Source: a virus. Taken from it: a stretch of DNA of 45,913 nt. The notes under the pieces were generated by a model. It saw only the letters and a program-made list of their open reading frames with translations. It was not told where the DNA came from and ran no database searches. Shown here piece by piece: positions 6,535 through 34,555 of the stretch. A program made the translations under genes and the position numbers. The stretch's first letter is position 1. Each line of letters begins with the position of its first letter. Where the stretch lies: the IMG/VR virus record IMGVR_UViG_3300049783_001779, positions 1 through 45,913 of that record, one strand, 5' to 3'.

Positions 6535-6599
6535 ACACTTTGTTATGTCTAAGATTTTTTTTAGATGTTATTTAGAATTACTTATTTAAAATTATACAA

Positions 6600-7418: not shown

Positions 7419-7426
7419 TTTGTTTT

Positions 7427-7556: not shown

Positions 7557-7567
7557 TTTATGAATTT

Positions 7568-7605: not shown

Positions 7606-7640
7606 AAAAACTATTTATTTTACTATTTATGCTTTCTATA

Positions 7641-7683: not shown

Positions 7684-7691
7684 CATAATTC

Positions 7692-16803: not shown

Positions 16804-17214
16804 ATGCCGATTAGTATTAAATTCCCATTTAAAGAGACAACTGCAGGAGGTGTATTCATGTCGAATGTAACTTCTCTTGAGGCTATTCAGACTAATTTGA
16901 TTTCCCTACTTACAACTAAGAGAAGAAATAGAGTCATGAGGAGTCAGTTATATTCTCCTTTGTGGGATTATATATTTGAGCTTTGGGATGATATATCTGC
17001 AGCAAAATTAAAAGGAGAACTTATTGAAAAAATTGGAACATTCATTCCAGAGATAGAGGTTTCTCAAATCCTTTTCAAGTTTGTTGAAGGTGATAACTTA
17101 CTTGAGGTAAAGGTTGTTTACAAAGCTCGTGACCTTGGTGAAATAGAAGATGAAGTAAGCGTTGTTATACCAGTTGACCCATCGGGTTCTTCTGGAGCAG
17201 ATGACCACTCGTAA
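16804..17214 (+). CDS. gp25-like baseplate wedge protein
   Basis: A 136-residue protein with the gp25/gpW lysozyme-like fold signature: IKFPFKETTAGG at the N-terminus, TNLISLLTTKRRNRVMRS (family LLxTxxGERVM), then LYSPLWDYIFELWDDISAAKLKGELIEKIGTFIPEIEV split over two helices, and a terminal beta strand. The length matches T4 gp25 (132 aa). In the T4 baseplate gp25 nucleates the sheath and sits at the gp6-gp7-gp53 junction. It is 16 nt upstream of the gp6-like gene, the conserved order in contractile tails. Acidic C-terminal tail (SGADDHS). Confidence 0.9.
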   Translation: MPISIKFPFKETTAGGVFMSNVTSLEAIQTNLISLLTTKRRNRVMRSQLYSPLWDYIFELWDDISAAKLKGELIEKIGTFIPEIEVSQILFKFVEGDNLLEVKVVYKARDLGEIEDEVSVVIPVDPSGSSGADDHS

Positions 17215-17230: not shown

Positions 17231-19126
17231 ATGGAACAAAAAACTGTAACAGTAAATTATTTAAGTAGAGACTTTACTTCTATTAGAGAAGATTTAATCA
17301 ATTACCTTAAAACATTTTTCCCAGAGCAATGGCAAGATTTTAACGTAACTTCTCCAGGTATGGCGATGCTTGAACTTAATGCTTATGTGGGAGACCTGCT
17401 GTCTTACGCTACTGATAAGAAATTTAATGAATTGTTTATTGATGGCGTTACAGAAAGAAGGTCTGTGTATAGACTCGCTAAGACGTTTGGATATAAACCA
17501 CCAGGAGTTAGGCCAGCTGTGAGTATTTCTGATATTATAATAGAAGTTCCGCCTACAGCCGATGGACCAAACGTTTCTTATCTTCCTACTTATAGGGCTG
17601 GTATGAGAGTAAAAGGTGCTGGGCAAACATTCGAAACAGTTAATGAAATAAATTTTGCAAGCGATTTCAGTGAAGATGGAATTGCTAATAGAATTATAGA
17701 ACCTATATTCAACGGTAATCAAGACCTTGTTAGATATAGAATAATTAAGAGAGAAAAAATTAAAGCTGGAGTAACAAAGATATTTAAAGCAGAAGTGCCA
17801 ACTTCTCAAGCGGGACCATTCTATACAGTTGAGTTGCCTGATAAAAATGTTCTTGAAATAGTTTCTGTAATTATCCTTAATGGATTAGGAATAGAAAGAA
17901 CACCATCTTTCTCGGAGTTTAACGATTTCAATCTAAACTATTATGAGGTAGATGCGCTTCCTACTGATAAAATTTTTCTTAACGATGATACTGTTAATAC
18001 TGTTAATGGAGTAAAGACAGGTAGATATGTTGAAGTGGAAAAGAGATTTGAGAAAGAGTTTCTTTCTGACGGTTCATGCGTGCTTACGTTTGGTGGAGGA
18101 ATTGAGGATTATGATGCTTATGAGGCTTATATTGATTCTTTGACAAATGTTGTCAAGTGCCCAGATTCAAAAAATCTTGATGTATCTGCTATTTTGAACA
18201 ACACTGCTCTTGGAGTTCAGGTTCCGCCTAACTCTACTATTTTTATAAAATACAGAGCTGGCGGTGGACCGCTGAGTAATGTAGGGTCAAATGTGCTAAA
18301 TCAAGTGTCAAACATTAACAGCCAATCTCTTGGGGCAAACTTAGAGCTTATACAAGGGGTTTTATCATCTACGAGGGCTAACAACCCAGTTCCAGCGATT
18401 GGTGGGGTAGGGCTTCCAGGAGTTGAGGAAGTAAAGAGTTTTATTGCTGCAAATTATGCATCTCAAAATAGAGCCGTTACTTTAGATGATTATGTTGCCA
18501 GAGCATTTCAAATGCCAGGTAAGTATGGGGCGCCTTTTAGAATCTTTGGGAAAGTAGAAGATAATAAGGTTAAAATGTACACATTGACCAGAGATGGAGC
18601 TGGACAACTTGTAGATGTTTCTACTAACGTCATCAAGACAAACCTTCAAAGGTACATGGTGCCTTTTAGAATGATTAATGATTATGTTGAAGTTAACGAT
18701 GGAAAAATTGTAAACCTTCAGTTGGAAGTTGATTTATTCGTAGACAAGACATTTAATGCAAGTGAAGTAAAATCTCAGGCGATTAATCAAATAAAGAGTT
18801 ATTTTAATGTAGAGAAGTGGCAAATGAATCAAAACATTTATGTATCTCAACTTACAGATTTCCTTAGAGATATTCCTGGTATTATAAACGTTGTTGATAT
18901 TAGATTTTACAACATGGAAGGCGCAGACTATTCAAGTACAAGACATTCTCAAGCAAACCTAAATAGAACTCAAGACCCAAACACTGGAGCTTTTAGAACA
19001 GAGTTTGGTTATATTGACAATGCTATATTTGGAACACCTATTTCAATGTTTGAAGTTAAGTTTCCTGCAAAAGATATTTTAATTAGAACTGCTTCTGGCG
19101 TTGGGAACACTGTTAGTGTTACGTAA
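17231..19126 (+). CDS. gp6/gpJ-like baseplate wedge protein
   Basis: A 631-residue protein. The N-terminus is the classic baseplate-J/gp6 start: VNYLSRDFTSIREDLINYLKT, then FNVTSPGMAMLELNAYVGDLLSYATDKKFNELFI. VEEVKSFIAANYASQNRAVTLDDY in the C-terminal third is the second hallmark (AxxRAVTxxDYxxxA). VNLQLEVDLFVDKTFN and IYVSQLTDFLRDIPGI follow as in T4 gp6. Close in size to T4 gp6 (660 aa). Forms the inner iris of the baseplate. Upstream is A-rich (ACATAAAAA) with no Shine-Dalgarno. Confidence 0.92.
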   Translation: MEQKTVTVNYLSRDFTSIREDLINYLKTFFPEQWQDFNVTSPGMAMLELNAYVGDLLSYATDKKFNELFIDGVTERRSVYRLAKTFGYKPPGVRPAVSISDIIIEVPPTADGPNVSYLPTYRAGMRVKGAGQTFETVNEINFASDFSEDGIANRIIEPIFNGNQDLVRYRIIKREKIKAGVTKIFKAEVPTSQAGPFYTVELPDKNVLEIVSVIILNGLGIERTPSFSEFNDFNLNYYEVDALPTDKIFLNDDTVNTVNGVKTGRYVEVEKRFEKEFLSDGSCVLTFGGGIEDYDAYEAYIDSLTNVVKCPDSKNLDVSAILNNTALGVQVPPNSTIFIKYRAGGGPLSNVGSNVLNQVSNINSQSLGANLELIQGVLSSTRANNPVPAIGGVGLPGVEEVKSFIAANYASQNRAVTLDDYVARAFQMPGKYGAPFRIFGKVEDNKVKMYTLTRDGAGQLVDVSTNVIKTNLQRYMVPFRMINDYVEVNDGKIVNLQLEVDLFVDKTFNASEVKSQAINQIKSYFNVEKWQMNQNIYVSQLTDFLRDIPGIINVVDIRFYNMEGADYSSTRHSQANLNRTQDPNTGAFRTEFGYIDNAIFGTPISMFEVKFPAKDILIRTASGVGNTVSVT

Positions 19127-19218: not shown

Positions 19219-22200
19219 ATGAGTATTAAAAGAGAGGAAATAACGATAAAGAATTTTACAACTGGGACAACCCTGATGTATTTTAGTACTCATTTGGACA
19301 AAGTTCCAGATATTGAGAACCAATTCGATATTTCCCCTACTATTGTTGAGTTTGATAATAACAACAATGCTGTTGATGTTTCTACTTTTGATGGCGTAAG
19401 TCTTTGGAAGAGAAATTCAGAGCATGTAAATGTTGTTCTTTCTTCTATTACCAATAATTACATGACAGGCCATTCATATGTGCTTGATGTGAATAGAGTT
19501 ATGAGACAACCTGAGATTGACACACTTAAACTCAAATTTAACAACCTAATAACATCTACCCTTAATACTGGAGCAACAACATATGACAATTCTACAAATC
19601 CAGTAATTAATCCATACGCTCCAATACCAGCGCACACCGAGTATTTATTTCATAAATACCAAGAGATTGATGACTTTTATGTTAACGTAACACTAAATAG
19701 AACTTACGACACTCTTGATACATTAAACATTTACAACAACCTTGTAAACAGTATGCCGACTCAAGAAGCAGACACTGGAGTTGTATTTGGCCGTTTAATG
19801 GCACGTCAGACAATAAAAGATGTTGAGGGTAACAATGTGAGCATACCACTTAGAAATACTCCTGTAGGCATCTTTAATCCATCTGAGGACTATCCAGCGT
19901 CTACATCTGTAGATGTAAATGGTGATAGGTTGTTTTTAAACAACAAAGAAAACTCAGACCCAGACGAATACTTCAACATTGAGTCGTTCAGCGCTGATAC
20001 AAATGACTATCTAAGGTCTGTGTCTCACTTTACAACAGTTCCAGACCAATACAAATATATTACAACCACCAATGAGAATGGTGAGTTCATAATTTACGAT
20101 GTTCCAATTGGAAGTCAGATAGCTGTGTTCGAAGTTGACCTATTTAAGCAGGGGCTTACAAAAGATGAAATTGCACTCAACTTCTTCCAGTTCCCTCCGA
20201 GTGATGATAATATTCTTGATACCATTCCAAACTTTTCATTTAAACAATTTCCAGTAAATGTTGTTAAGTCATGGGGTACACTGCAAACTGGATACACTGA
20301 ACTTAACATTACTGTTAATTATGACCTTAAGAAGTGGGCTACGTATTATGTGCCACCAATGGCTTATGACAACAACAAACTTGGTTCTGTTGAACTATTA
20401 AACTTCTCTCCATCGCTTAATGTAGACATTAGAGATATGTCCAAAGAAGGGTTTCCTGAGAAAAACATACCTGTAGTTGAAATTCATAAAATATATGATA
20501 AAGATGAAGAACACACGCTTCTTTGGGAAAGCGAATTTGCTCAACTTAAGAAAACGGCTAAGTTTTTTGAACATGGTTTTAGAGCCTTCAAAGTCCCTGC
20601 CAACATGTATGACCCAAAAGGTTACAGAACAGATATTGATGGTGTACCGAGAACACATCCTACATCACAAGGGGTTTGGCTCGCAGGCTATCAATTTAAA
20701 CTTTACTACAATCAACCAGGTTCTATATTTAGAACGACAGGTTTTCAAAGGGATTGGGGATTTGTAGACCCAGGGTGGCGTGGTAGAGACCATTTTCATA
20801 GAAATAGAGGCGAATCCTCAGATTTAAAGAACACAGAAGTCGAAGGGCAAATGTTTCCTCCTTATGATAAACCATGGACCCACTTGTATCCTGACACATA
20901 CAAGATACCAGCTAAACCTATTGACAAAAATTTTGATAGAGTAACCAATGTTGGTAGACAGCCAGGAAGTAACCCTTACTACTTGGAACAGCCTGAATAT
21001 AAAGACGGAGACCTTAATGGGCTAAACGTAACTGCGCCCAGTATAATAACTGCTCCAGCAGGAGGTTTTGGTGTGCAATATAGTTCAACAAACACATTCT
21101 GGTTTCCAAACAGATTCTCAAAAGAAGTTACCGCATCATTTGTTTACAAATACGAAGGAGGGGTAGCTTGGAACGAAGTTTACTCTAATGGTTATCAGCC
21201 ATCTAATGGTAGTTTCCCAATTCAACCTGGGGTTTCTAATGTTCTTAATGGTGAAAAATACCAAAGAGCTGAGTGTGGATATGGATATTGGCTAAGACCA
21301 GAAGGTTGGCCTCCAGTGTCTGCTGAACCATGGGGTGATACATTATTTTCACAAGCGACAAGGCCAGGAGCTGGAATGTCAGCCGACTTTGGTCCAGGAA
21401 CTCTAAATGTTGGAGAAAGCAATGGGAACAATGTTGTACAAGCTCAAAATATCCCTATTGATGTCTATAATTTTGAAGACAAAGATGTTGCGCTTGCGCT
21501 TGATAACAATGCTACATACTCTGAAGGAGCGCTTAGTCTTTATAGGGTAATCGACCCTAATGATAGAATAGAAATAGGCCCAGAAGTTATACCAACTTCT
21601 GCTATTTATCTCTTTAAATCAGTATTCTTTCAAAGAGGTAGAAGGACGGCTACCAGAACCAAATCTGGAGAACACAATAAAAATAGTAACAATGATGAAG
21701 AGTGGTTTTCAAGATACAACGGAGGTAGCCAACACGCTGTACAAGACTATAGTAGATTGAAGGTAAGAATAGTAAATAATGGAAACATAGAAGTTAAAAT
21801 ACCAGCTACATCTATAACTCTATCTCCTGGAGAAGGGTATGATTTTACTGCATCTGAAATAAGTCTTGATAACCTGTCTATAGAATTGCCAGGGAATTCA
21901 AATTTTGACTTTGGAACCAGTAAGTACACAAAAGCAAACTACACATTTCAATTTAAAGATATTATACACTTAAAAGATAATGGAGATTCTTATTCTGATT
22001 CTTTTTTTTACAACTTTAATGTAACTAATTCAAATGTAACAGCGGATGTATCTCCCCCAAGTTATCATATGATTACAACTATATTAAATGCAAGAACTCA
22101 ATGGGATAGCAACTCAGGAGGCGGGTCTTGTAAAACAGATAATAAAATTGGAACTACTGGAAATGATAATGTTGCCAATGTTTATATGGATGGTATATTA

Positions 22201-22335
22201 TTTGTTCCCCCAGGTTCTAAGAGTACATTGTCTAAAATAGCATTTTACCCAGCTCCAATTACCGCTACATGTGGTCAAAGTCCTTTCTACGGTTCTGGAG
22301 ACCATCAACGAACTATTCCAATTCAACTTGTTTAA
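19219..22335 (+). CDS. Very large baseplate/tail structural protein
   Basis: A 1038-residue protein directly after the gp6-like gene. N-terminal IKREEITIKNFTTGTTLMYFST starts a beta-rich module. Residues about 215-320 (IPLRNTPVGIFNPSEDYPAS, a long polar loop, then TTNENGEFIIYDVPIGSQIAVFEVD) look like a carboxypeptidase-regulatory/CnaB-like beta sandwich: the GxFxxxxVPxGxxxxxxE pattern is its signature. The rest is rich in Pro, Tyr, Trp, Gly and Asn (WGFVDPGWRGRDHFHRNRG), typical of phage tail proteins. By position it probably replaces the large peripheral wedge/pin proteins of T4 (gp7, gp8, gp10). Exact equivalent unknown. Start ATG 19219 follows an AT-rich leader. Confidence 0.7.
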   Translation: MSIKREEITIKNFTTGTTLMYFSTHLDKVPDIENQFDISPTIVEFDNNNNAVDVSTFDGVSLWKRNSEHVNVVLSSITNNYMTGHSYVLDVNRVMRQPEIDTLKLKFNNLITSTLNTGATTYDNSTNPVINPYAPIPAHTEYLFHKYQEIDDFYVNVTLNRTYDTLDTLNIYNNLVNSMPTQEADTGVVFGRLMARQTIKDVEGNNVSIPLRNTPVGIFNPSEDYPASTSVDVNGDRLFLNNKENSDPDEYFNIESFSADTNDYLRSVSHFTTVPDQYKYITTTNENGEFIIYDVPIGSQIAVFEVDLFKQGLTKDEIALNFFQFPPSDDNILDTIPNFSFKQFPVNVVKSWGTLQTGYTELNITVNYDLKKWATYYVPPMAYDNNKLGSVELLNFSPSLNVDIRDMSKEGFPEKNIPVVEIHKIYDKDEEHTLLWESEFAQLKKTAKFFEHGFRAFKVPANMYDPKGYRTDIDGVPRTHPTSQGVWLAGYQFKLYYNQPGSIFRTTGFQRDWGFVDPGWRGRDHFHRNRGESSDLKNTEVEGQMFPPYDKPWTHLYPDTYKIPAKPIDKNFDRVTNVGRQPGSNPYYLEQPEYKDGDLNGLNVTAPSIITAPAGGFGVQYSSTNTFWFPNRFSKEVTASFVYKYEGGVAWNEVYSNGYQPSNGSFPIQPGVSNVLNGEKYQRAECGYGYWLRPEGWPPVSAEPWGDTLFSQATRPGAGMSADFGPGTLNVGESNGNNVVQAQNIPIDVYNFEDKDVALALDNNATYSEGALSLYRVIDPNDRIEIGPEVIPTSAIYLFKSVFFQRGRRTATRTKSGEHNKNSNNDEEWFSRYNGGSQHAVQDYSRLKVRIVNNGNIEVKIPATSITLSPGEGYDFTASEISLDNLSIELPGNSNFDFGTSKYTKANYTFQFKDIIHLKDNGDSYSDSFFYNFNVTNSNVTADVSPPSYHMITTILNARTQWDSNSGGGSCKTDNKIGTTGNDNVANVYMDGILFVPPGSKSTLSKIAFYPAPITATCGQSPFYGSGDHQRTIPIQLV

Positions 22336-22337
22336 TT

Positions 22338-24440
22338 ATGGATGATAAGAAAAAAATAGTACTCGGTAGTGAAGACTTTCTTGCGAAAGGTAATCAGGAT
22401 ATTTTCATTAATATAAACTTGCAACAAAAGTTTAATATAATCAAGAGAGAAAAGTTTGATAATAACTTTGACCTTGCTGAGCAATTTAGAAAAGAAAGAA
22501 ACGCATCAAGAAGTTTTAGGGTCTATGGTATAATAGATTCTCCACTTATTGATTGCGACAACCTTACGATTAAGGTTTACTCTCAATCAAGCTTCATAGG
22601 GATATTTCAAGTGCTCGCAAATCAAGTGGCAACAATAACTTCGCAACCAATAGGGTTTGGAGATAAGAATGTATTTGGTAAAATGAAGGGCAAGTATATT
22701 CTTGAGCTAAATAATTATGAAGCTTCTGACACAATCTGGTTGGAGGTTCAAGGAGATGGCGTTACTTATGCAAGAACAATAATCGAACAGAGCCTTGTTT
22801 TTAGGGATTCTGACGGAGTGTTTGTTGAATATGGTACTGATACTATTGATATTGGAATAAATGGGGGATTTGAGGTTATACAAAATGACTTCCCATTTTT
22901 CTATAATAAACATTGGATTAAAAACAATTTCCAGGTAGAAAAAGTTAATGTTAGAAATATAAGATTTGGACAATCAGCTTATTATCTTGATGAAGGAGAA
23001 AGTGGTACAGTAACAGTTCAATTAACTGAGCCGAGCGTTTTCGGAACTGAAAGCGTAACTGTTAATCTTATAACTCCAGCAGGGGAAGCTTATAATACAG
23101 CTGCTCCTGGAATAGATTTTAGTGTGGATACATTCCCATTCTCATTCCCTATGAATTTAAGCTGGGGAGTTGGCGAACAAATTAGAGAAATAGACATTAC
23201 TGCATTGAGTGATTTTATCATTGAAAAGAATGAAGAGCAATTTTCACTTTCTTTGGACAACCCAAACAATGCAACAACGGATAATGGAGTGGTAAATATA
23301 GAATCAACAACTGTTTCTATAAAAGACCTTACTCCAAAAGTTTATGTAAATTACAACTTCCAAAAAATAATAAACAATATAAACCCAATTACAGACCCTC
23401 TTATATTCCCTGAAAACCTTGGACAATTTCCAGGCTATCAAATGAATATTTTTGGAGCAAAAGATGGAGTTGGTTCTCCAGCGGATGTGAACAATAACTT
23501 TAGATTCTTTCCGAATGATACTTTTGAGGTTACAATAAAGAATGATGGAGCAACAACAACTCTTCCTGTAATACCTGGAGTTACCACTCAAGAACAATAT
23601 TTTGCAGCAGGAGACAGTATTACTTTGTTGGTGGACACTAAGTATGTAAACCACGACTCCCTTCCAAAAGAAGTGGCTGTATTTGAATTTAGAGAAAAAG
23701 ATACTGGAGGCGTTTTTGGCGGAAGCAATTACTACACAGACGAATTCTTTATTAATGGCCTTAGAATTGAACCAACAGCTCTTGTTGCAGATGATTTTGT
23801 TGAGAAATTAACTCAAAAATATGACCAAGTTGGAATGGTGCCATCTTTTACTATAGAGCAATCTTTCAAGACTGTTACTTTGACAGCAAAGCATCCAGCT
23901 ACTAATGTAAATGGATTTATACCACAAGATAGTGGAGGGTTTTTCCCAGGAAGTGGAGACTATGCGTTACAAGGCTTTAATGAAACTCCAGATTATCCAA
24001 ACGGAAGAACATCAACTATAACTGACCAAATTCCTTTTGAACTGAAGTTATATGCCAATGACAATAATGCGACAACCTGTAAGTATAGCTTTGCGATTAA
24101 AAAACAAGGATTTAAAGAAGTATTCGTACCATCTACGAGTATTGCAGCAAACACTTCTGGTACAAACGCTTACTTAGTTACTCCCATAAAAGATGTATCT
24201 GGGCCGTCATTGCCACCAGGTGATGCTGCTGTTTGTAATTCATTTACGAACACTCTTGATACAGATGGGTATTACTTGAATGGAGTCGCACTTCTTGCTT
24301 CAGGAGTGTTTAACTCTGAAGAGGCTACTGCAACAAATGCGCATTCATCTGGTTATTTGCCATCATTTAGGTTGACACCGCTTACTACATCTTTGATAAC
24401 TTGTAATAACTTGATAGGAATATCAAAAGTTTTATCTTAA
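22338..24440 (+). CDS. Virion protein with Calx-beta domain
   Basis: 700 residues from ATG 22338, 2 nt after the previous stop; an upstream in-frame start at 22269 lies inside that gene and is disfavoured. Residues about 208-330 look like a Calx-beta domain: YYLDEGESGTVTVQLTEPS, GIDFSVDTFPFSFP, ISAL-type strand EIDITALSDFIIEKNEEQFSLSL and LDNPN. Calx-beta modules bind calcium and occur in adhesins and phage tail proteins. N-terminal and C-terminal parts are beta-rich with no known match. It probably forms part of the peripheral baseplate with the 1038-residue protein. Confidence 0.7.
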   Translation: MDDKKKIVLGSEDFLAKGNQDIFININLQQKFNIIKREKFDNNFDLAEQFRKERNASRSFRVYGIIDSPLIDCDNLTIKVYSQSSFIGIFQVLANQVATITSQPIGFGDKNVFGKMKGKYILELNNYEASDTIWLEVQGDGVTYARTIIEQSLVFRDSDGVFVEYGTDTIDIGINGGFEVIQNDFPFFYNKHWIKNNFQVEKVNVRNIRFGQSAYYLDEGESGTVTVQLTEPSVFGTESVTVNLITPAGEAYNTAAPGIDFSVDTFPFSFPMNLSWGVGEQIREIDITALSDFIIEKNEEQFSLSLDNPNNATTDNGVVNIESTTVSIKDLTPKVYVNYNFQKIINNINPITDPLIFPENLGQFPGYQMNIFGAKDGVGSPADVNNNFRFFPNDTFEVTIKNDGATTTLPVIPGVTTQEQYFAAGDSITLLVDTKYVNHDSLPKEVAVFEFREKDTGGVFGGSNYYTDEFFINGLRIEPTALVADDFVEKLTQKYDQVGMVPSFTIEQSFKTVTLTAKHPATNVNGFIPQDSGGFFPGSGDYALQGFNETPDYPNGRTSTITDQIPFELKLYANDNNATTCKYSFAIKKQGFKEVFVPSTSIAANTSGTNAYLVTPIKDVSGPSLPPGDAAVCNSFTNTLDTDGYYLNGVALLASGVFNSEEATATNAHSSGYLPSFRLTPLTTSLITCNNLIGISKVLS

Positions 24441-24455: not shown

Positions 24456-24968
24456 ATGGATACAATAGATAACATACAACAATACGAAATTTATGTTGAT
24501 GCCGTAGAGATAGAGCCAGGGTGTTGGGATTTCTTACACTCAGACTGTAAGTATTACAGATTTCCAGAATTCGACTTTCACCTTCCTGTTTTTTTGACAA
24601 GAACAAACGAAGTGTTCGAATATGTTCAAATTGATAGAGATGAAGACATAGAAGTAATTGCAAGACAGGAGGTAAATCCTTTTTTTATTGAGCTTTCATT
24701 TTTTGATGGTATTACTCAAAACAAAGTTAGGTACGGAAGTGATTTGACAAATGATATGATTGATTTTATTCGTAGTGTTAGAAGCGAGGTTTCAGAAGCA
24801 GATAATGCGGAAGTTGTGTTTTGGTTTGACCAAATAGGAATCAACGAGTTCCCTTGGTATAAAGGGACTGCTGCAGAAGTTACTCTTGATGACATAGATA
24901 AAGTTAATGTGATTCCAAGCCATATAATTTCAAAAGCTGATTACTTTGACATAGACATAAACAAATAA
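24456..24968 (+). CDS. Hypothetical tail-cluster protein
   Basis: A 170-residue acidic protein, about 15 nt after the Calx-beta gene; its stop overlaps the next ATG by one base. Features: CWDFLHSDCKYYRFPEFDFHLPVFLTRTNEVFEY in the first 60 residues, aromatic and beta-rich; later EVVFWFDQIGINEFPW. No family recognised. Operon context (tail/baseplate) suggests a small structural or chaperone protein. Confidence 0.6.
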   Translation: MDTIDNIQQYEIYVDAVEIEPGCWDFLHSDCKYYRFPEFDFHLPVFLTRTNEVFEYVQIDRDEDIEVIARQEVNPFFIELSFFDGITQNKVRYGSDLTNDMIDFIRSVRSEVSEADNAEVVFWFDQIGINEFPWYKGTAAEVTLDDIDKVNVIPSHIISKADYFDIDINK

Positions 24969-25807
24969 TGCAAAAGCATAAATTATTAATATCAATCTCT
25001 GGGACAACTGCTCCGATAAATTCTACCTTAAAAAAGGTGAACGGATACCAGGTGAACGTAATTCAAGGTCTTGGTGGTGGAATCGTCAATTATTCTAATG
25101 TTAGAAAATTTTTGAATGATGATGTTAATTTAATTATCATAAACGATTTCTACACCTATCTAACTGGAGCAACAACTCAGGTAGAATTTCGAGAAATTTA
25201 CAATAGTGACCAAAAGTTATCGGACGTATTTAATAACTACTACGATTCAAGCATTGTTAATAATCAATTTCCTCCAAGCACAGCTATAGATAATAGTTTG
25301 GCTGGAACGACAGGAGTTACTGTTGTTGATAGCTCCGCTTTTAAGTACAACGGAGTAGCGCCCTCAAAAGGGCTTTTACATATTCCTTTGAGCATTAATA
25401 ATACAGAGAGAGAATTAAAAGTATTTTCAGCTCTTACAACATTTACTTATGAGCCAAGTTACTATGTTCCTGTATTTATAAAAAGGAGTTATAGCCAAAC
25501 AGACAGAGAAAGAGTTTATTTTGAAAACATAATGAAAGAATTTAATGACTTTGTTCCAGACTTGGGAAATGACACAAGCGGAGGCAATGATTATGATTAT
25601 AATGGAGGCTCTAATTCTTATGACGCAGGTGCCGTAACTAAGGATGTTGCATTCACACCACCTCAAGACTTTTTTAATGGATTTGGTGATACTGGAGAAG
25701 TGGAGTTTGATTTTGGAGGAAAACAAAGCGGAAGCGACACTGGTAGCACTGGTAGCACTGGTAGTAATGGTGTTGGGGATGTTGGAGAAGTAAAATTTAC
25801 TAAATAA
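24968..25807 (+). CDS. Hypothetical tail-cluster protein with Gly/Ser/Thr-repeat tail
   Basis: A 279-residue protein, coupled by TAATG at both ends. The first 200 residues are a mixed alpha/beta region (LLISISGTTAPINSTLKKVNGY, DVNLIIINDFYTYLTG, then FIKRSYSQTDRERVYFENIMKEF). From about 205 the sequence turns into a flexible linker rich in Gly, Asp, Ser and Asn, ending with three TGS repeats before DVGEVKFTK. Two GDTGEVEFDFGG/GDVGEVKFTK segments near the end are imperfect duplicates. No family recognised; probably a minor tail component. Confidence 0.6.
   Translation: MQKHKLLISISGTTAPINSTLKKVNGYQVNVIQGLGGGIVNYSNVRKFLNDDVNLIIINDFYTYLTGATTQVEFREIYNSDQKLSDVFNNYYDSSIVNNQFPPSTAIDNSLAGTTGVTVVDSSAFKYNGVAPSKGLLHIPLSINNTERELKVFSALTTFTYEPSYYVPVFIKRSYSQTDRERVYFENIMKEFNDFVPDLGNDTSGGNDYDYNGGSNSYDAGAVTKDVAFTPPQDFFNGFGDTGEVEFDFGGKQSGSDTGSTGSTGSNGVGDVGEVKFTK
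25739..25764 (+). repeat. Short tandem repeat, 9-nt unit
   Basis: Three copies of ACTGGTAGC (the last with one change) encode Thr-Gly-Ser repeats in a flexible protein tail. Such units can change copy number by slippage. Confidence 0.7.
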
Positions 25808-26643
25808 TGGCAAGAATAAATTTAATATTACAAGGGTTCGTAGACATAAATCTCGAAACAGACGAAAACGTCAACACTAAGATAGGATACAAAGAAAGCC
25901 AGGCTCAATCTCAACTTGCTTTTGGAGTTATTAATTTAAACTTAGGAGGTTTATCAAAAAAGTCTGTTGCTGCACCAAACAAGGTTGAACTACCAGTATC
26001 AGTTGAGGAAATATTTGAAGGTATAGGAATTAGTTTTTTATCTGTACAATCATTGCATGTGCAAGGTTCGAGACTTTACGGAGTTAATGATGTTAATTCA
26101 GATTGGGATTTGTCAGTAATTACAACAGAAGTTTCTGAGCATGACTTTAGAGAAGTTAGTATAGGTGGGAACGATTTTGACGTTCATCTATTTTCTCAAT
26201 CCCAATTCCAAAATAGATTGGATAATTATGAAATGCGTGAACTTGAATCTTTAAGTCATCCAGAAGAATTTATTCTTATTGACAATAAAAGTTTTTCACT
26301 GGATATTGACAACGATAAACTAATTAGTCAAGTTAAATTTGAATCAGATGACCTTTGGAATAGAGCAAAAAATATACTAAACTCAGGAGGAGATTCTTAT
26401 ATAGCTTTAAAAAATATTTGGCACTCATTTAGATTTTTAATTTTTGCTGAACAAATACTTCAAAACGGAAGTATAACAGATTTTACTGCAGCAAATTACT
26501 TATATGAATCAATAGTTAATTCTGGTCGAGATGATTATGAATTTTTTGAGATTAATTTTGCCACACTTAGAGAGACTTTAAAATTAAACCTGGACACATT
26601 TAAAGACGATGGAGGACTTGAACTGATAGAGTTTAAGTTATAA
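25807..26643 (+). CDS. MNT/Pol-beta-type nucleotidyltransferase encoded in the tail operon
   Basis: A 278-residue protein. Residues 87-101 read GSRLYGVNDVNSDWD, the canonical GS-x10-DxD nucleotidyltransferase motif (Gly87-Ser88, Asp99, Asp101), and the third acidic residue is present at Asp125 in DFDVHLFS. The active site is therefore intact. Residues 1-60 form a separate N-terminal segment (INLILQGFVDINLE...FGVINLNLGGL), and residues about 165-265 are helical (WNRAKNILNSGGDSYIALKN), like the substrate-binding helices of such enzymes. The family transfers a nucleotide to RNA, protein or small molecules; the target here is unknown. It is coupled by TAATG to a tail-cluster gene, so it is expressed with virion proteins. 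Confidence 0.8.
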   Translation: MARINLILQGFVDINLETDENVNTKIGYKESQAQSQLAFGVINLNLGGLSKKSVAAPNKVELPVSVEEIFEGIGISFLSVQSLHVQGSRLYGVNDVNSDWDLSVITTEVSEHDFREVSIGGNDFDVHLFSQSQFQNRLDNYEMRELESLSHPEEFILIDNKSFSLDIDNDKLISQVKFESDDLWNRAKNILNSGGDSYIALKNIWHSFRFLIFAEQILQNGSITDFTAANYLYESIVNSGRDDYEFFEINFATLRETLKLNLDTFKDDGGLELIEFKL

Positions 26644-26688: not shown

Positions 26689-27564
26689 ATGGCAGTAGGT
26701 ACTTATGGAACAGTTAAATTAGCAGACGCAGACTTCAATGATGTTGACGTTTTGTATTCTTATTCTCCAGATAGAGAATCGCTTGGAGACACAGAGTTCC
26801 AACCAATATACAACAGTGTTACTAATAATGAATTTAGAAAACTTCTTGGTGGCGATGGTGGTTACAAACTTAGGTTACCTGCAAACATATTTAATCAACT
26901 TGGGTTTTACTTGCTTTTAATTAGACCAAAGTTATTTCAAACAGAAATAGTTGACTGCTCGTTCGTCATAACAAACAACGACCAGGAGATACAAATATCT
27001 AAAAAGGGTATAGTTATACCAAAACTACAATTCCAGAGCACTGGGAGTCTCGTAGGGTACCAAATAGAGTATTTTGATGACAACGGTGTTAAGATTAAAA
27101 ACTTTCACAGAATAATCACAAGCTCTGACCTTGTAAGTGTAAACCCAAACAACAATACAACTGTGTCCAGTTCTACAACTTATGTGTTGGACCCAAATGG
27201 AAATCAATTATTTCTTACACTTACTCCAGATGAAGCAAGCCTTATAACAAACGAAGTTAGTTCTGACCTTGGAAAGTCAGGTCAACAAATACTGGTTTCA
27301 AACACTTTCTTTGACCCTACTATGGTTGAGGTGGAAATGGTTGACCAAAGCATTAAAACTCTTAGTTATGTCCTTTATGGCAATTCAACAAGAGACCTTG
27401 AAACTGGAGTTTATTCTGTTTTTGATGATAACGGAAATCTTTACAGACAATACAACCTTGTTACAAGGAAGAAGCAGTTTGCTGCTGGAAATATTGATGT
27501 CAAGGAAGAGAGAGAAAATACTAATAGAGCTCAGACATTTTTTAACCTCTCTCAAGGGCTTTAG
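26689..27564 (+). CDS. Virion structural protein, unknown type
   Basis: A 291-residue beta-rich protein with its own TATTTATA box. N-terminal AVGTYGTVKLADADFNDVDVLYSYSPDR, LPANIFNQLGFYLLLIRPK, then DCSFVITNNDQEIQISKKGIVIPKLQ. GYQIEYFDDNGVKIKNFHRIITSSD and VYSVFDDNGNLYRQYNLVTRKKQF look like repeated strands. No family recognised, but composition and context suit a tail/baseplate protein. Its stop overlaps that of the convergent 69-residue gene by 4 bp. Confidence 0.6.
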   Translation: MAVGTYGTVKLADADFNDVDVLYSYSPDRESLGDTEFQPIYNSVTNNEFRKLLGGDGGYKLRLPANIFNQLGFYLLLIRPKLFQTEIVDCSFVITNNDQEIQISKKGIVIPKLQFQSTGSLVGYQIEYFDDNGVKIKNFHRIITSSDLVSVNPNNNTTVSSSTTYVLDPNGNQLFLTLTPDEASLITNEVSSDLGKSGQQILVSNTFFDPTMVEVEMVDQSIKTLSYVLYGNSTRDLETGVYSVFDDNGNLYRQYNLVTRKKQFAAGNIDVKEERENTNRAQTFFNLSQGL

Positions 27565-27772: not shown

Positions 27773-29449
27773 TTAAGATGTTGTAACGGTCCATCCGTTT
27801 GCTATTAAACTAAGGGTAGCTCCCGTTCCATCAAACCCTCCTGAGGAACCATTTGGAGCTGCATTGCTTCCAGAAATATCTAAAGTAACCCCTGCCCACC
27901 CAGACGGGTTAAGTGTAGCAATGCTATCTAAATCATAAAGAATACGATTAACATCCGCAGATTGCATTAAATTGTTGTTGATAACTATAGATGCCCCATT
28001 TGTTGCCCCAGTGTTCATAGTGGCCGCAGAAAGAGGCCAAAAATTAGTATACCCTAAGCTGCAGTTATTCATGCTAATAGCTTTTAGAGATGCACCTGTG
28101 TTGCTAAGCGTCTCTGTAGAAGGTCCTAATAAAATATTTGTTAACCCAGCGTTATTGTCTATTCTAATATACTGAGATACTGCTGATAGCATTGACATAT
28201 CATGTTCCAAAATTAAACCAGAGGAAGAAATGTTATAAAAACCAGTTGTCGTTGAGCCAGTGTGAAGTACTTTTGTGAGATTAGGATTATTGGATAAATT
28301 ACAACTTCCAAGCTCATTAATCATAGTCATATCGTGTATGCCCATTAAATCGCAACTGCTGGCAGTATATGACGTAATTCCAGTATTAGAAGTGTGTGTA
28401 ATTCCTGTAAGCCTTAAATTCCCGTTAACCGAAAAAGTTCCGATTAGGTTTGGAAACACACTAACATCAAGGTTTCCAGTTAAATTGCAGTTATATACAC
28501 GATATGAATTTATTACGTTTGTAGAAGCTGTATGCGTAACTCCTGTAAGGTTTGGACAATCAAACGCAGCAAAAGTACCAGCAAATGAACCACCTATTCC
28601 AGTAAGCATGCTAACATCTAAGTTAAATATTCCAGTGTTAGAAATATTGTAGTCAATCGCATTTGTTGATGCTGTATGTATTACTTCAGTTAAGTTAAGG
28701 TTGTTGTATATAAAAAAATCTCCACCTAATCCAGGAAACATAGAAACATCATGTGTTCCAGTTAAGTTACAATCATATACATCATAATTAGCAAAAGTCT
28801 CAGTAGAATAAGAATGTGTGATGCTTGTTAGGTTTGGATTATTATCAAGTAGTAAATTTCCACTTAAATTAAGCGGACTCAAGTCAAGATTTCCAGTTAG
28901 GTCACAATCTTTTGCATTGTAGTTAATTGGCTCTGTTGATGCAGAGTGCGTTATGATTGTTAGGTTTGGATTATTGTTTGCAATAAAAGAAGCTCTAAGT
29001 CTAATCATAGATAAATCAAGATGTCCAATTATATTGCAACTTTCTATTCTATACCCTTTTATATGATAAGCGCTTTCAGTGTGTGTTACTCCAGTTAAAT
29101 CTGGATTGTTTTGTAAATAGCAAACTTGAGTGGTGAACGCTCCCGTGTTTCCAAGATTATCCCATCCAGATAAATCAACATGACCAACAAGGCTATCGCT
29201 ATCTGCAATAAAGGAGTTGAAATTTTTTATAAAATTATCCCCCCCTCTAAGAGATACGGTTTTTGTAATACCAGAATCAGCATATGTATGAACCAAAGAG
29301 CCTTGCACATAACTGCTCCCATCTCCAGTGTCCCACAAGACATTTGTTGCACCTACATCTGGGCTAAACGTAGTTCCGCTTGGTGAATTTGTTTGAAATG
29401 TCCAAACTTCCCCTACTTTATTATTTGCGTTAAAAAACGAATTAATCAT
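27773..29449 (-). CDS. Tail-fibre/adhesin candidate: PKD-like domain plus leucine-rich repeats
   Basis: A 558-residue protein. Residues about 12-75 (VWTFQTNSPSGTTFSP...WDTGDGSSYVQG...HTYADSGITKTVSLRGG) form a PKD-like domain: WDTGDG and HTYADSG are its signature. From about residue 114 come eight repeats of 44-48 residues with the core NNPNLTxITHSxST and CxLTGNLDLS, giving an LRR/BspA-like solenoid. The C-terminus (VNRILYDLDSIATLN...LDISGSNAAPNG...IANGWTVTTS) is the usual cap of such proteins in Bacteroidota and their phages. This design is that of a receptor-binding protein, and the LRR surface would vary specificity. It lies in the fibre operon. Function inferred from architecture and location. 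Confidence 0.75.
   Translation of the reverse strand: MINSFFNANNKVGEVWTFQTNSPSGTTFSPDVGATNVLWDTGDGSSYVQGSLVHTYADSGITKTVSLRGGDNFIKNFNSFIADSDSLVGHVDLSGWDNLGNTGAFTTQVCYLQNNPDLTGVTHTESAYHIKGYRIESCNIIGHLDLSMIRLRASFIANNNPNLTIITHSASTEPINYNAKDCDLTGNLDLSPLNLSGNLLLDNNPNLTSITHSYSTETFANYDVYDCNLTGTHDVSMFPGLGGDFFIYNNLNLTEVIHTASTNAIDYNISNTGIFNLDVSMLTGIGGSFAGTFAAFDCPNLTGVTHTASTNVINSYRVYNCNLTGNLDVSVFPNLIGTFSVNGNLRLTGITHTSNTGITSYTASSCDLMGIHDMTMINELGSCNLSNNPNLTKVLHTGSTTTGFYNISSSGLILEHDMSMLSAVSQYIRIDNNAGLTNILLGPSTETLSNTGASLKAISMNNCSLGYTNFWPLSAATMNTGATNGASIVINNNLMQSADVNRILYDLDSIATLNPSGWAGVTLDISGSNAAPNGSSGGFDGTGATLSLIANGWTVTTS
28016..29110 (-). repeat. Eight LRR-type repeats of about 135 nt
   Basis: Repeats start at residues 114, 159, 203, 249, 297, 343, 387 and 432 of the protein (spacing 44-48). 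The NNPNLT core and following ITH(S/T)xST are the best conserved; the intervening surface varies. Confidence 0.75.
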
Positions 29450-29460
29450 AACGCTATATT

Positions 29461-30414
29461 TTAAGTGTAACTATTACCTACGTTCCATAAAAACTCTACG
29501 CCATCATAAAAGAATGTTATAACATCTACTGCTCCAGCATTTCCTGTAAGAGTTATTGAGCCCGCTCCTGTATTAACTACTTGATGTGTACCAGTTCCTA
29601 ATGTTATTGTGAAACCTCCAGCACCGCCTTGAGTTATTTTAAGCGTACCATAATCTCCATCTTCAACATTAGAAATATCGAGCGTTAAGTTTGAGGTTAA
29701 TGTAATTTTTGCATTTGAAGAATTATCTATATCCCAATTAACTGTACCACCACTTGTTCCTATGTCGTGAGTAGTCTTCTTTCTTACTGTTTCGCTGGTG
29801 TATAATTTAGTTACTCCTGTTACAGTAAAGTTAGCATTAACCGTAGAGTCATCGTTTAATTCAATACCACCAGCTCCTTGAGCTATGTTAGAGTTTCCTA
29901 TAACTGTAGAACCATCCCATATAGCAAGGTTGTTTGTTGTACCAGTTCCTGTAACAGAGCCTCCTCCACCTCCAATTGGGGCAAATATATTATAAAGGTC
30001 TGTTCCTCCTGAGTATATAACACCAATTCCAGTACCACCAGAAAAATCTACACCACTACCCATTTTAATCGGAGCGTTGTTAAAGCCAACATAATTAATG
30101 TTTCTAAACTCAAAAGCATAAGTACTACTGTCTCCAAGCAATGATGTGTTACCGCTAAGATTGCCTCCGAGAACAATGTTATTCCCTATTTTTGTAAGAC
30201 CATTTGACGCAGTTGTACTTCCGCCTCCTCCAGAGAATATATCATAAAGGTCAGTTCCGCCAGAATAGATAACACCACCTCCAGTACCACCTGAAAAGTT
30301 GGCACCAGAATCTAATATAATGTTATTAAACTCAGCAGTTCCACTAAACGCACTGTTTAGAGCTATTCTTCCGACCCCGTAGGTTATTCCAGTTGCTATT
30401 AATTCTCCAATCAT
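29461..30414 (-). CDS. Tail-fibre protein, Gly-rich
   Basis: A 317-residue protein. It contains two copies of a Gly-rich module FSGGTGxGVIYSGGTDLYxIF (about 40-62 and 124-146), separated by beta-strand sequence, as in trimeric fibre shafts. The C-terminal 120 residues (KITLTSNLTLDISNVEDGDYGTLKITQGGAGGF...VDVITFFYDGVEFLW) resemble the conserved distal domain of many phage tail fibres that ends with a VITFFYDG-type strand. It is the second gene of the minus-strand block and has a TATTTATA box 21 nt upstream. It probably forms the shaft to which the LRR protein or its own tip binds the receptor. Confidence 0.75.
   Translation of the reverse strand: MIGELIATGITYGVGRIALNSAFSGTAEFNNIILDSGANFSGGTGGGVIYSGGTDLYDIFSGGGGSTTASNGLTKIGNNIVLGGNLSGNTSLLGDSSTYAFEFRNINYVGFNNAPIKMGSGVDFSGGTGIGVIYSGGTDLYNIFAPIGGGGGSVTGTGTTNNLAIWDGSTVIGNSNIAQGAGGIELNDDSTVNANFTVTGVTKLYTSETVRKKTTHDIGTSGGTVNWDIDNSSNAKITLTSNLTLDISNVEDGDYGTLKITQGGAGGFTITLGTGTHQVVNTGAGSITLTGNAGAVDVITFFYDGVEFLWNVGNSYT
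29980..30310 (-). repeat. Imperfect direct duplication within the fibre gene
   Basis: Segments of about 65-75 nt near 29985-30055 and 30232-30305 are alike, about 250 bp apart, and encode the two FSGGTG/IYSGGTDLY modules. Recombination between them could delete or duplicate a shaft segment. Confidence 0.6.
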
Positions 30415-30427
30415 CTTTTTGCTTTCT

Positions 30428-30435
30428 TATAAATA
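30428..30435 (-). promoter_or_regulatory. Candidate late promoter box (minus strand)
   Basis: In the gene's direction CTATTTATAAGAAAG, 21 nt before the ATG of the Gly-rich fibre gene. It would let the fibre genes be transcribed separately from the upstream baseplate genes. Confidence 0.5.
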
Positions 30436-30441
30436 GTTCGT

Positions 30442-32103
30442 TTAATATTTAATTATATCGTTTTCCTTAGTGATAACTAAATCATAAATATTATCCCATT
30501 GAATCTTAATCTCAACAAGTATGTCTATGTCAGAGCTCAATACAATTGGCCTGCTATCAGCAGCGTATCCTCTATATGTTGTATTAAGCGTGTAGATTCC
30601 TTCTTCGAGGTCGTTGAACTCAAAGTACCCAACTGAATCAGTAGGCATTGTTACGAAGCTTGCGTTAGGATATATAAGTTGCATTGTTGCTCCAGTTACA
30701 GTTGAACCAGTCACAGTGCCACTAAGGCTATATTCAGAAAGTGGACTCTCAACATCAAGAGACGGAGGCGTTTGAAGTCCAGCAATTTCAGAAGTCCACG
30801 GACTATCGCTTTCTGTTTTAACAAATGTCTTCATCGGTTCAGCCTGAGTGCAAATAATTTTGTTGTCTGAGAATGTAACAACGCTCTGTTTAACATCAAA
30901 CAAGTTCTTTAAAACTTTAACATTACCAACTCTGTATAACAAACATTTATTTGTCTTAAGTGATAGTTGATATTTTCTAATTGTCTTGTCTGTAGAGAAT
31001 TCGGATTCGGGACCCTTCGTCTTGCTCATAGCGACTTCTTTGTATTCATCAACTTTAGGGACTAAGTATGTGAACACAGTTCCAGTGAACCCTGTATCTC
31101 CAGTGTTGTAATTTACTTGTACCATGTATTCATCAGCACTCTCTCCATTAGTCCAAAATATCTCTGGAGTAAATGTCTCAATCTGTCCTTCTGGGGTCGG
31201 ATATTCAAGTATTGGCTTGTCGGGAACTTCGAAGAAAGAAAAATAATCTCCAGTCTTAAAGTTTAAGCCTTCAAACTCACCTTTGTCAATTGTTGCTCCA
31301 GAACTCTCTGTAACAGCAGTTACAGGGTTAGCATAAGTTCCTCCAGATATTACACCTTCCGCACTAATGGTTTCGTAATTAGCTAAACCTGAGGTAACAT
31401 CAATCTCAAATATGAAATTGGTATCAATTATATACTGGTCTCTATCTTTGAATAACTCCGTCTTGTATTGTCCAAGGTTTTTGGTAAACTGCTCAATTTG
31501 AAGGTCGTATATATTTGTTGTTATATCAGTTGTGTCCGCTGTTATAGAAAATATAGGAGTATCAAGTTGCGCTTGAATATCTGCAATAGTTGGAAGAGTG
31601 ATTAATTTATCTTCTCTTCCTTCAGAGTCGTTGGAGGTTTTTCTTTTTGACTTAAGCACATTGCTATCTGTATTTATAGTTCTTGTGATTGTCTTCTTTT
31701 TTGTCTCTCCAGTCGCTTCATCAAATTCCTCTATTGTTTCGGTGATTACATCCTCTGTTTGAACCGCTTCGTTTGAATAAGCTTTAAGACCGCTTTGAAC
31801 TGTGTTATACAAATCCCAAGAAACACGATATATATCATGCTGAAGCCTTACGGTAGGTCCGAAACTTGCAGTATTTGCGCTGAAGTCAAATCTAACAAAG
31901 GGCTGCACAAGGTTTGTGAATATAGAGCGTGAATCCTGCATATAATAATCCTTGGTTCCGCCAACAGTTGTATATTTAGGAATTTCAAAAATAGAAGGAA
32001 CAGTAACTCCTTCCTTTGTAAGATAAAAGATGTTTTGATAGAAACTTTGAGCTACGTTATCGCTGTTTCCAGTTGTTTCTTGTATGGATTTTTTTTCTAT
32101 CAT
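30442..32103 (-). CDS. Baseplate/tail protein with carboxypeptidase-regulatory-like C-terminal domain
   Basis: A 553-residue protein. N-terminal YQNIFYLTKEGVTVPSIFEIPKYTTVGG is followed by a long region with a charged, probably flexible stretch at 118-160 (ETIEEFDEATGETKKK). From about 462 the sequence YSLSGTVTGSTVTGATMQLI...TDSVGYFEFNDLEEGIYTLN...I matches the carboxypeptidase D regulatory-like/CnaB beta sandwich (G-V-T-x-A-T, then G-x-F-x-F-x-L-x-x-G-x-Y). Such domains project from virions as host-contact modules. It starts 1 nt after the stop of the gpI/gp7-like gene, so the two are co-translated. Likely a peripheral baseplate component. Confidence 0.65.
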   Translation of the reverse strand: MIEKKSIQETTGNSDNVAQSFYQNIFYLTKEGVTVPSIFEIPKYTTVGGTKDYYMQDSRSIFTNLVQPFVRFDFSANTASFGPTVRLQHDIYRVSWDLYNTVQSGLKAYSNEAVQTEDVITETIEEFDEATGETKKKTITRTINTDSNVLKSKRKTSNDSEGREDKLITLPTIADIQAQLDTPIFSITADTTDITTNIYDLQIEQFTKNLGQYKTELFKDRDQYIIDTNFIFEIDVTSGLANYETISAEGVISGGTYANPVTAVTESSGATIDKGEFEGLNFKTGDYFSFFEVPDKPILEYPTPEGQIETFTPEIFWTNGESADEYMVQVNYNTGDTGFTGTVFTYLVPKVDEYKEVAMSKTKGPESEFSTDKTIRKYQLSLKTNKCLLYRVGNVKVLKNLFDVKQSVVTFSDNKIICTQAEPMKTFVKTESDSPWTSEIAGLQTPPSLDVESPLSEYSLSGTVTGSTVTGATMQLIYPNASFVTMPTDSVGYFEFNDLEEGIYTLNTTYRGYAADSRPIVLSSDIDILVEIKIQWDNIYDLVITKENDIIKY

Positions 32104-32104
32104 A

Positions 32105-34555
32105 TTATGGTACTATTGTGGTTTGAGATACACTTGGCTGAACTTCTCCATAAATTTCATGACCTTCAATTCCAGCTCCAAACTTGTTAACATTAATATA
32201 CCCTTCAATTTTAACTGCGCTAATTCTTTGCCCTATACCTTGAGATACAGTACCAACTATTACTACAGGAGTCTGATTAGCGCTTAAGAAATCGTTTATT
32301 GCAGGAACTATCTGAACAGGCGTTAGAGGCGGTCTTAAATCTGGAGGAAGAGCATTTTGAAACTCCGAACCATCGTTAATACCCTCTTTGTACACAAACC
32401 TTTGCCTGTGAAATATAGTGTTCCTATATGTAGTCCCCTGGCATTCAAGGATAGTTGTAGCAGGCAATAGTTGCATCAAGTAATCTTGGAAGTTAACCTC
32501 CATCAAATCTAAGAATGCTTCAAGTTTTTTGATTGTAAGTTGATTTGACTTAGGGTCCTGCATTAAGTAATAGTTCATATAAATCTTCTTAAGCTCAGGG
32601 TATGAGAAAGAGGTGTGAACTTGTGAATTCGTTTTTCTATTTCTTGGTTCTATGTTTGACTTATAAATAAACTCCGTGTATTCAGTCAAAGTCATTCCAG
32701 ATATTTCTGCAGGATTGACAAATTCACAATTATCTATAGAGTATTCAAACGGAACTGTGTTTGAACTAAATGGAGGAGCAGTACTTCCCCATACCCAGCA
32801 AGTTCCGCTTTGTTGATACCAATCTTTTACATCACATTCAATTGCTGCTGCAGGGCTAAGTGTCGCACAAAGCTCTTTCGTGTTAATAATGTTCTCACTA
32901 CCAGTAACTCCTGTATCACCAACGTGAACTTTTATGTTATCATTTCTTTTTATAGGCAAAAACTCAGGCTCCCACTGGTTGATGTACTTTTGTCCAGTAC
33001 CTCTTCCAGCTCCTCCTTCTTGAAATATAAGATTACTCCACGAGTAGTTAGGAAATCCTCTTGAGTTTATTTTGTCGAATGAGACGCCTGTTTCTAACTG
33101 AAGAGCTAACTCTGGGTCTGGGATTGCCGTAGAAACTGTTTGTTGTATATCATACACAAACTCATTAAATACTACAAGACATTCTGGAGCCCCCATTAGT
33201 TTAAATAAGAATTGAAGCGCATCTCTCGTGCCTTTCTTTTTGTAAAGCCAATTGATGTTAATTAAAATTCTCTTCCAAATCTCCACATTATAATATGCAA
33301 ATGAATTTTGCTCAGGATTCTCTTCAGAAGCTAAGTACTCAAAAAGGTCAATCTCACTAAATGAGCTTGACAGTTTCCATCCAAGAAGATTACTTAGTTT
33401 AACCAAAAATTTTTCTGGAACACTATTTTCATCACTATAATTAATAGTGTGAGCATAAGCTATATTGTCAATAAATTGCTTAATCTCATCAAACTCTTTT
33501 GCATAGGCTGATGTAAACTTTTTATATATTTGAGTATCTGTATCAAATTCAATATAGTTGTCTGGCAACATAGTTTTAACCATGATGTCAGTCTTATCCA
33601 TATCAGTGTTTCCCGCAAGAAGAAGAATGTCGCCCTGATACGTTTCAAATTGCGCACCTTTTGTGTCTGGGTTGAACCCATCAATAGTCCTTGGCCAAGG
33701 TAATCTGTATGTGAAGTTTTTTTTCTCATCATCAACATCTGGAATATCAAATAAAGCTTGATTAAGCATTTGCCTTTCCAATCTTGATTGTTGCATCCTG
33801 TATTCAGTTAATCTCTTTCTTGATGGCCTTATGTATACTGGCAACTTACTATAAGTACCACCACCTTCAAAAGGGGTGACTGCTCCGTTAGCAAGGTGTC
33901 CTTTTATAGTAAACTCAAGAACTCCATTTGTTCCTCCAGTATAAGAATAAGCCTTAATTCCAAACGATTCAGTTACAGCCGTAGTGGCTCCGCTAAGTTG
34001 TATTTCAAATAGATTAGTCTGAGTCATCAAGCTAACTTGGTTTCCAACTGGAGAGCCTGAGTTAAATAAAATGAATCCCTGGTTTATAATGGTATCTGCT
34101 GGAATTTTAAAGGTTGATGTCTTTTCTCCAGTAATTTGATTGAACGCTTGAGTATAATCATACATGGTAACACTCTGCAAATTATCATAAGCAAGAGCTG
34201 CATATGGGAATGTATCAAGTATGTTATTAATTGAGCGTGCTACTTCTGTATAGAAAGAGCCAAAATATGAATAACTATAAGGGTCTGATGCTAAAGGTCT
34301 AAGTTCATTGTTTTGAACTGATGTAGTCATTATTGGATTGAAGTCCTCAACTCCCATGTTTTCAAGAGTAGAAAAAGGGGTGAAGGTTACATTCCTGGCA
34401 GTACCAGTTAATGCGTCTGATTCGCTACTTCTCTCAATCCTGAAATCACCGAACGTAAATATCGACTCAGAATTCGTATTAGGAAACCTAAGGTCTTGTC
34501 CTGGTTGAAACGCTGGCGATAGCGAATTTTTAGGATTTGAAGGAGTATCTGCCAT
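32105..34555 (-). CDS. Baseplate wedge protein of the P2 gpI/T4 gp7 type
   Basis: An 816-residue protein. Residues about 330-460 hold the gpI-like core: LPDNYIEFD, KEFDEIKQFIDN, LVKLSNLLGWKLSSS, WKRILININWLYKKKGTRDAL and FLFKLMGAP. The pattern of a KxGTxxAL motif after a helical LxxLLGW segment is diagnostic of tail protein I family members, which bridge gp6-type and gp53-type subunits in wedges; T4 gp7 is the enlarged equivalent. Flanking parts are beta-rich and probably phage-specific. First gene of the minus-strand block, with a divergent promoter region upstream shared with the 34693 gene. Confidence 0.8.
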   Translation of the reverse strand: MADTPSNPKNSLSPAFQPGQDLRFPNTNSESIFTFGDFRIERSSESDALTGTARNVTFTPFSTLENMGVEDFNPIMTTSVQNNELRPLASDPYSYSYFGSFYTEVARSINNILDTFPYAALAYDNLQSVTMYDYTQAFNQITGEKTSTFKIPADTIINQGFILFNSGSPVGNQVSLMTQTNLFEIQLSGATTAVTESFGIKAYSYTGGTNGVLEFTIKGHLANGAVTPFEGGGTYSKLPVYIRPSRKRLTEYRMQQSRLERQMLNQALFDIPDVDDEKKNFTYRLPWPRTIDGFNPDTKGAQFETYQGDILLLAGNTDMDKTDIMVKTMLPDNYIEFDTDTQIYKKFTSAYAKEFDEIKQFIDNIAYAHTINYSDENSVPEKFLVKLSNLLGWKLSSSFSEIDLFEYLASEENPEQNSFAYYNVEIWKRILININWLYKKKGTRDALQFLFKLMGAPECLVVFNEFVYDIQQTVSTAIPDPELALQLETGVSFDKINSRGFPNYSWSNLIFQEGGAGRGTGQKYINQWEPEFLPIKRNDNIKVHVGDTGVTGSENIINTKELCATLSPAAAIECDVKDWYQQSGTCWVWGSTAPPFSSNTVPFEYSIDNCEFVNPAEISGMTLTEYTEFIYKSNIEPRNRKTNSQVHTSFSYPELKKIYMNYYLMQDPKSNQLTIKKLEAFLDLMEVNFQDYLMQLLPATTILECQGTTYRNTIFHRQRFVYKEGINDGSEFQNALPPDLRPPLTPVQIVPAINDFLSANQTPVVIVGTVSQGIGQRISAVKIEGYINVNKFGAGIEGHEIYGEVQPSVSQTTIVP

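Follow-up and report, generated by a model that had tools for sequence, protein, structure and literature searches.

Known enzymes of phage tails are mostly depolymerases and cell-wall hydrolases. HalB of the Hailong system, a host defence protein, consists of a nucleotidyltransferase and a helical bundle, and the aminoglycoside nucleotidyltransferases (AadA, ANT(4′) and others) have a two-part fold as well. MntA-type antitoxins of HEPN/MNT pairs are short, one-domain proteins that are partnered by a HEPN toxin. Free-standing phage enzymes of about 200 aa form PHROG 388, with members in Bacillus phage G (gp109), Stenotrophomonas phage RAS14, Xanthomonas phage XacN1 (ORF208) and Bacillus phage PJN02. 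RlaP enzymes occur in jumbo-phage RNA repair (PMC7824862), and Pol-beta nucleotidyltransferases have been described in the polyvalent proteins of mobile elements (PMC5512222). The latter have in common with T4 Alt, which is head-packaged cargo, the idea of an enzyme that the particle carries or that is delivered along with the DNA (PMC5512222). In the open-access literature, we found no report of a nucleotidyltransferase in a phage tail operon.

Here, we analysed a virus record of 45,913 bases, hereafter the window, in which an enzyme of this superfamily is encoded among tail genes. Its product is probably a tail-mounted nucleotidyltransferase that sits in an exchangeable payload slot of a baseplate/tail-fibre protein. 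The motif, the fold, the retained active site, the common N-terminal segment, the exchange with Calx-beta domains and the fusion to a tail domain in one relative (L013) were all computed here. The operon contains the following genes:

16804–17214, plus strand: baseplate wedge protein, gp25-like (phrog_43, E 5.6e-13).
17231–19126, plus strand: baseplate wedge protein, gp6-like (phrog_219, E 3.5e-20).
19219–22335, plus strand: 1038-aa tail-operon protein whose C-terminus is related to the beta-rich domain of L013.
22269–24440, plus strand: Calx-beta tail protein (PF03160, E 5.7e-7), likely start at 22341.
24456–24968, plus strand: conserved small tail-operon protein of 170 aa.
24968–25807, plus strand: upstream tail protein (domain A), which in relatives ends in the docking segment or has it fused behind.
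25807–26643, plus strand: tail-operon nucleotidyltransferase of 278 aa (open frame, PHROG 388 match, predicted fold).
26689–27564, plus strand: conserved downstream tail-operon protein that marks the slot in other phages, 84–93% identical in the nearest relatives.

The gp6-like wedge is distantly related to the wedges of Flavobacterium phage immuto, Microcystis phage Mel-JY01 and others, and the downstream protein has no homologue in 50,697 phage records. The enzyme gene lies in the structural operon and is linked to the structural module, as befits a virion-associated enzyme. The initial annotation had proposed that it is translationally coupled to virion genes, and in the window its ATG does overlap the upstream TAA as TAATG; the coupling does not extend to the relatives, where the gap is about 15 bp (L001) or nearly 100 bp (L002). 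Late synthesis of the protein, judged from the operon, and its presence in the virion are probable. An Rfam scan of the window found no RNA, and a sigma-70 promoter scan performed no better than on shuffles.

Within the gene, all on the plus strand, we distinguish these features:

25807–25884, plus strand: docking segment, residues 1–26 (MARINLILQGFVDINLETDENVNTKI); residues 7–26 are identical in L001 and L002, and a related segment is found in the related tail operons examined.
25885–25986, plus strand: variable, disordered linker, residues 27–60 (pLDDT about 40, rapid change).
25987–26601, plus strand: nucleotidyltransferase fold and C-terminal helical bundle, residues 61–265 (alignment, predicted structure).
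26065–26070, plus strand: Gly87-Ser88 of the active-site motif (sequence and alignments).
26101–26109, plus strand: Asp99-Trp-Asp101, the metal-binding DxD (sequence and alignments).
26179–26181, plus strand: Asp125, the third acidic residue; every member of the tail clade has Asp here, whereas Asn or Ser is frequent among free-standing relatives.

An intact GS-x10-DxD motif with Asp125 as third acid had been noted previously, and these residues are where that reading placed them, with ten residues between S88 and D99. None of the five (G87, S88, D99, D101 and D125) varies among the four tail-operon members, whose identity to the window protein is 48–67% overall. Because G87, S88, D99 and D101 are also among the near-invariant columns of a 22-row family alignment, the motif is not due to chance. 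The protein contains the Pol-beta pattern G-S-x(9-13)-D-x-[DE] and, one of the later strands, a third acidic residue, and profile and fold matches both place it in the Pol-beta superfamily and the PHROG 388 group. PHROG 388, annotated as nucleotidyltransferase, matches it with an E of 1.7e-7; the Pfam NTP_transf_2 match is marginal (E 0.1), and several free-standing homologues exceed the PF01909 cut-off.

AlphaFold2 predicted a Pol-beta/MNT-type nucleotidyltransferase with a helical bundle (pLDDT ~96 for residues 60–265), preceded by a stretch that is predicted to be disordered (pLDDT <50 for residues 1–55); the N-terminal ~60 residues thus lie outside the enzyme fold, as had been suggested. 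The modelled succession of strands and helices fits a nucleotidyltransferase whose third acidic residue lies on a later strand. HalB was the top match among solved structures (Z 11.2 over 171 residues, 18–19% identity), followed by aminoglycoside nucleotidyltransferases (Z 8–8.7, 9–14% identity), and Z values of such size indicate fold, not function. In the same comparison, the C-terminal part alone was similar to HEPN-type helical bundles.

No described family claimed the protein at its own threshold. It scored 12.4 bits against RlaP (PF10127, cut-off 23), for which the best free-standing relative reached 19.8, and the RNA ligase PF09511 is absent from the window, L001, L002 and L013, contigs that are possibly fragments. 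The window protein did not match the HalB model (NCBIfam NF051895, cut-off 190 bits), against which its best relatives scored about 15 bits, nor the MntA model (NF047752, cut-off 60 bits), against which L001 scored 17 bits. Comparison with the ANT family profiles gave no match, and PADLOC gave none for the window protein and weak generic ones for its relatives. HalB differs from the window enzyme in being a defence protein rather than a tail protein; the gene neighbours of the window enzyme encode tail-operon proteins. MntA-type antitoxins have the catalytic motif in common with the window protein, with a weak profile similarity (E 1.3e-5 over 47 residues), but differ in being short proteins of one domain with a HEPN toxin as partner. 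T4 Alt, an ADP-ribosyltransferase, is unrelated in fold and location.

A chance open reading frame was ruled out by full-length relatives that are 66% identical and have conserved synteny, and a pseudo-enzyme arising by drift by the retention of family-conserved residues. Invariant in all four tail forms are G87, S88, Y91, S98, D99, D101, F134 and E147 as well as K202, H206, S207, R209, F213, Q216 and N230; D225, near-invariant in the family, is retained in three of the four and substituted in L013. The enzyme domain has a dN/dS of about 0.14–0.29 with high dS, that is, it is under purifying selection. Free-standing relatives have a Lys cluster of which part is missing in the tail clade (KCKKKL became RAKNIL in the alignment), so the substrate may differ. 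Given this loss and the long branch described below, the activity may be an altered one. Real NMP transfer is likely.

The free-standing homologues of about 200 aa, found in large phages, begin at about window residue 57–87 and do not contain the docking segment. The PHROG 388 enzymes named above have the homologous domain in common with the window protein, including GS, DxD, Lys202, His206, Arg209 and Asn230, but are encoded in NAD-salvage, tRNA or RNA-repair regions instead of a tail operon, and none of the window tail genes was found within 8 kb of free-standing relatives. NAD-salvage genes adjoin the relatives in RAS14, XacN1, L009 and others, and further neighbours are NADAR-type genes, tRNA genes (phage G) and an RNA ligase with a polynucleotide kinase (PJN02). 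In L006, L008, L009, L089, L096 and L103, free-standing enzyme relatives lie <5 kb from nicotinamide phosphoribosyltransferase, NadM-type or NADAR-type genes; this recurrence may hint at an NAD-centred counter-defence link. A search of genome contigs confirmed no relatives. The tree groups the four tail forms as a single clade (support 100/100), whose branch is long at 2.0 changes per column. Because this clade is single and long-branched, one recruitment followed by change is suggested, and a free-standing phage Pol-beta/MNT-like enzyme was apparently recruited into the tail slot once.

The initial annotation had taken the first 60 residues for a packaging or docking tag. That guess is well supported for residues 2–26, which are present on enzyme-less tail proteins of related phages, but not for residues 27–60, which are a linker. 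Full-length relatives occur in L001 and L002/L003; their overall identity is 67%, yet residues 7–26 are the same in all. Residues 2–26 are conserved more strongly than the enzyme itself, and the first 26 residues have very low pN and high pS, whereas the linker changes fast (dN/dS 0.5–1.1). The segment, for which AlphaFold2 gave no confident fold, roughly follows the pattern I-x-x-I-L-[QD]-[CG]-F-V-[DN]-[LI]-N-L-E-T-[ND]-E-N, and the whole-protein profile picked it up without the enzyme in L071. We infer its docking role from its position and conservation.

With domain A upstream and the conserved gene downstream as landmarks, we examined this slot in about 20 related contigs. The segment lies between the two in every contig, although L022, L024, L126 and L130 have a degenerate form of it. 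The sequence behind the segment varies. Nothing follows it in L060, L126, L128 and L129, which have domain A and the segment only, and a short disordered tail follows in L014/L015 and L017. Calx-beta-type domains follow it in L016, L019–L021, L023, L025 and L124, other same-chain extensions in L022, L024, L026, L130 and L131, and the enzyme in the window, L001, L002/L003 and L013, four distinct lineages only. Domain A, the segment and further domains form a single chain in L019, L021–L024, L026, L130 and L131. More distant relatives of the downstream gene (31–40% identity; L027–L059, L061–L063) are preceded by other genes, and no segment is evident there.

In related uncultured phages, Calx-beta tail proteins (L016, L020, L019) have the operon slot and the docking segment in common with the window enzyme and carry adhesin-type domains where the window phage has an enzyme. 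Their C-terminal beta-rich domain is also present in L013, where one chain consists of the segment, the enzyme (48% identical to the window protein over 262 aa) and this domain. Residues 279–604 of L013 align with the part of L016 that follows Calx-beta (284–617, E 2e-40), and the profile of the domain matches the C-terminus of the 1038-aa window protein (hhalign probability 92, E 7e-7); the full-length L013 model has a mean pLDDT of 51.7 and is poor outside the enzyme part. Because the beta-rich domain of L013 is homologous to the part after Calx-beta in L016, the enzyme occupies the Calx-beta position. This fusion is the strongest evidence for the enzyme as a tail component, and it strongly implies that the enzyme is associated with the virion. 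New here are residues 2–26 as a conserved segment and an enzyme in an adhesin-type tail-protein slot.

Two of these slots have a further gene. In L002 (10870–12492) and in L016 (just upstream of 8001), an endonuclease-like gene of the same type (MP[RK]KLTT[EK]EF...) is inserted and directly precedes the conserved downstream tail gene. The L002 insert is preceded by a second copy of the first codons of that gene (MAVGTYGTVKLAD), an arrangement that resembles a homing-type insertion.

We propose that a free-standing Pol-beta/MNT-like phage enzyme was recruited into the baseplate/tail-fibre payload slot, that residues 2–26 would attach it to the tail, most likely via the products of 24968–25807 and/or 26689–27564, that residues 27–60 would serve as a flexible tether and that residues 61–265 would be a catalytically competent enzyme. 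The enzyme would act when the particle meets its host and, as the phage attaches or enters, would transfer a nucleotide to a host molecule. Because the payload slot otherwise carries adhesin-type domains, we rank host contact or entry first, modification of the tail during assembly second and pure binding third. Action on a host molecule, in which we include delivery to the cytoplasm, is our tentative first choice rather than an expectation; NTPs are scarce outside the cell, and an external fibre has no obvious supply of substrate. With somewhat less confidence still, the particle itself might nucleotidylate a host component on contact or entry and would then carry a counter-defence or takeover enzyme outside the head.

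The supply of NTP is plentiful in the infected cell, where a tail-tethered enzyme could nucleotidylate itself, neighbouring tail proteins or their glycans, which would tune receptor binding or assembly. The late operon, a tether that places the enzyme next to tail proteins, and the glycosyltransferase and nucleotide-sugar genes of the window agree with such a modifier. No such modification is known here, however, and an assembly enzyme needs neither an adhesin slot nor an L013-type fusion to a fibre domain. We regard this reading as possible but rather unlikely.

Injection into the cytoplasm, as with T4 Alt, was raised by the initial annotation; it is one form of action on the host and a little less probable again. 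The enzyme would modify a host tRNA, protein or defence component there, for example through AMPylation (MntA-like) or oligodeoxyadenylate synthesis (HalB-like); tRNA as the target has the partial loss of the Lys cluster against it. The occurrence of Pol-beta nucleotidyltransferases among delivered polyvalent proteins (PMC5512222), HalB as the closest fold and the location of free-standing relatives near RNA ligase/PNK, NAD-salvage and NADAR genes are consistent with it. In contrast, the scores stay below the HalB and MntA family cut-offs, Alt is packaged in the head whereas the window enzyme is in an apparently external baseplate/fibre slot, and the fact that this slot is common to adhesin-like Calx-beta domains and not to head cargo or tape-measure proteins argues partly against injection.

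The replacement of Calx-beta domains by the enzyme also fits a fold that serves as a receptor-binding domain, with catalysis secondary or lost, as ANT-type enzymes bind amino sugars; the likeness to aminoglycoside nucleotidyltransferases and the long branch point the same way. Four diverged members nevertheless retain the metal-binding Asp and other family-conserved residues, which binding alone does not need, and we consider this improbable. An ordinary intracellular enzyme that is in the tail operon by chance and not in the particle, which its presumably all cytoplasmic free-standing relatives would suggest, is more doubtful still, because tail proteins that lack the enzyme have the segment too and L013 joins the enzyme to a tail domain.

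If the tail-mounted reading holds, a nucleotidyltransferase in an adhesin slot would bring a different chemistry to the virion. A segment of ~25 residues with varied payloads would be a natural attachment point; it predicts other tail-borne domains and offers a handle to find more of them.

Elsewhere in the window, four large minus-strand genes (27773–34555; 558, 317, 553 and 816 aa) break up the plus-strand tail operon. The 558-aa protein has leucine-rich-like repeats and is the most variable between relatives (about 33–53% identity), as receptor-binding proteins are. The region 29–10702 encodes an aminotransferase, two nucleotide-sugar epimerase-like proteins and glycosyltransferase-like proteins (phrog_3139, phrog_540, phrog_4356), possibly a pathway for a virion or host-surface glycan. 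Mre11/SbcD-like and Rad50/SbcC-like proteins are usually encoded by two genes (gp47 and gp46 in T4), and a 1148-aa open reading frame at 40719–44165, read from its sequence only, apparently joins an Mre11/SbcD-like phosphoesterase to a Rad50/SbcC-like ATPase.
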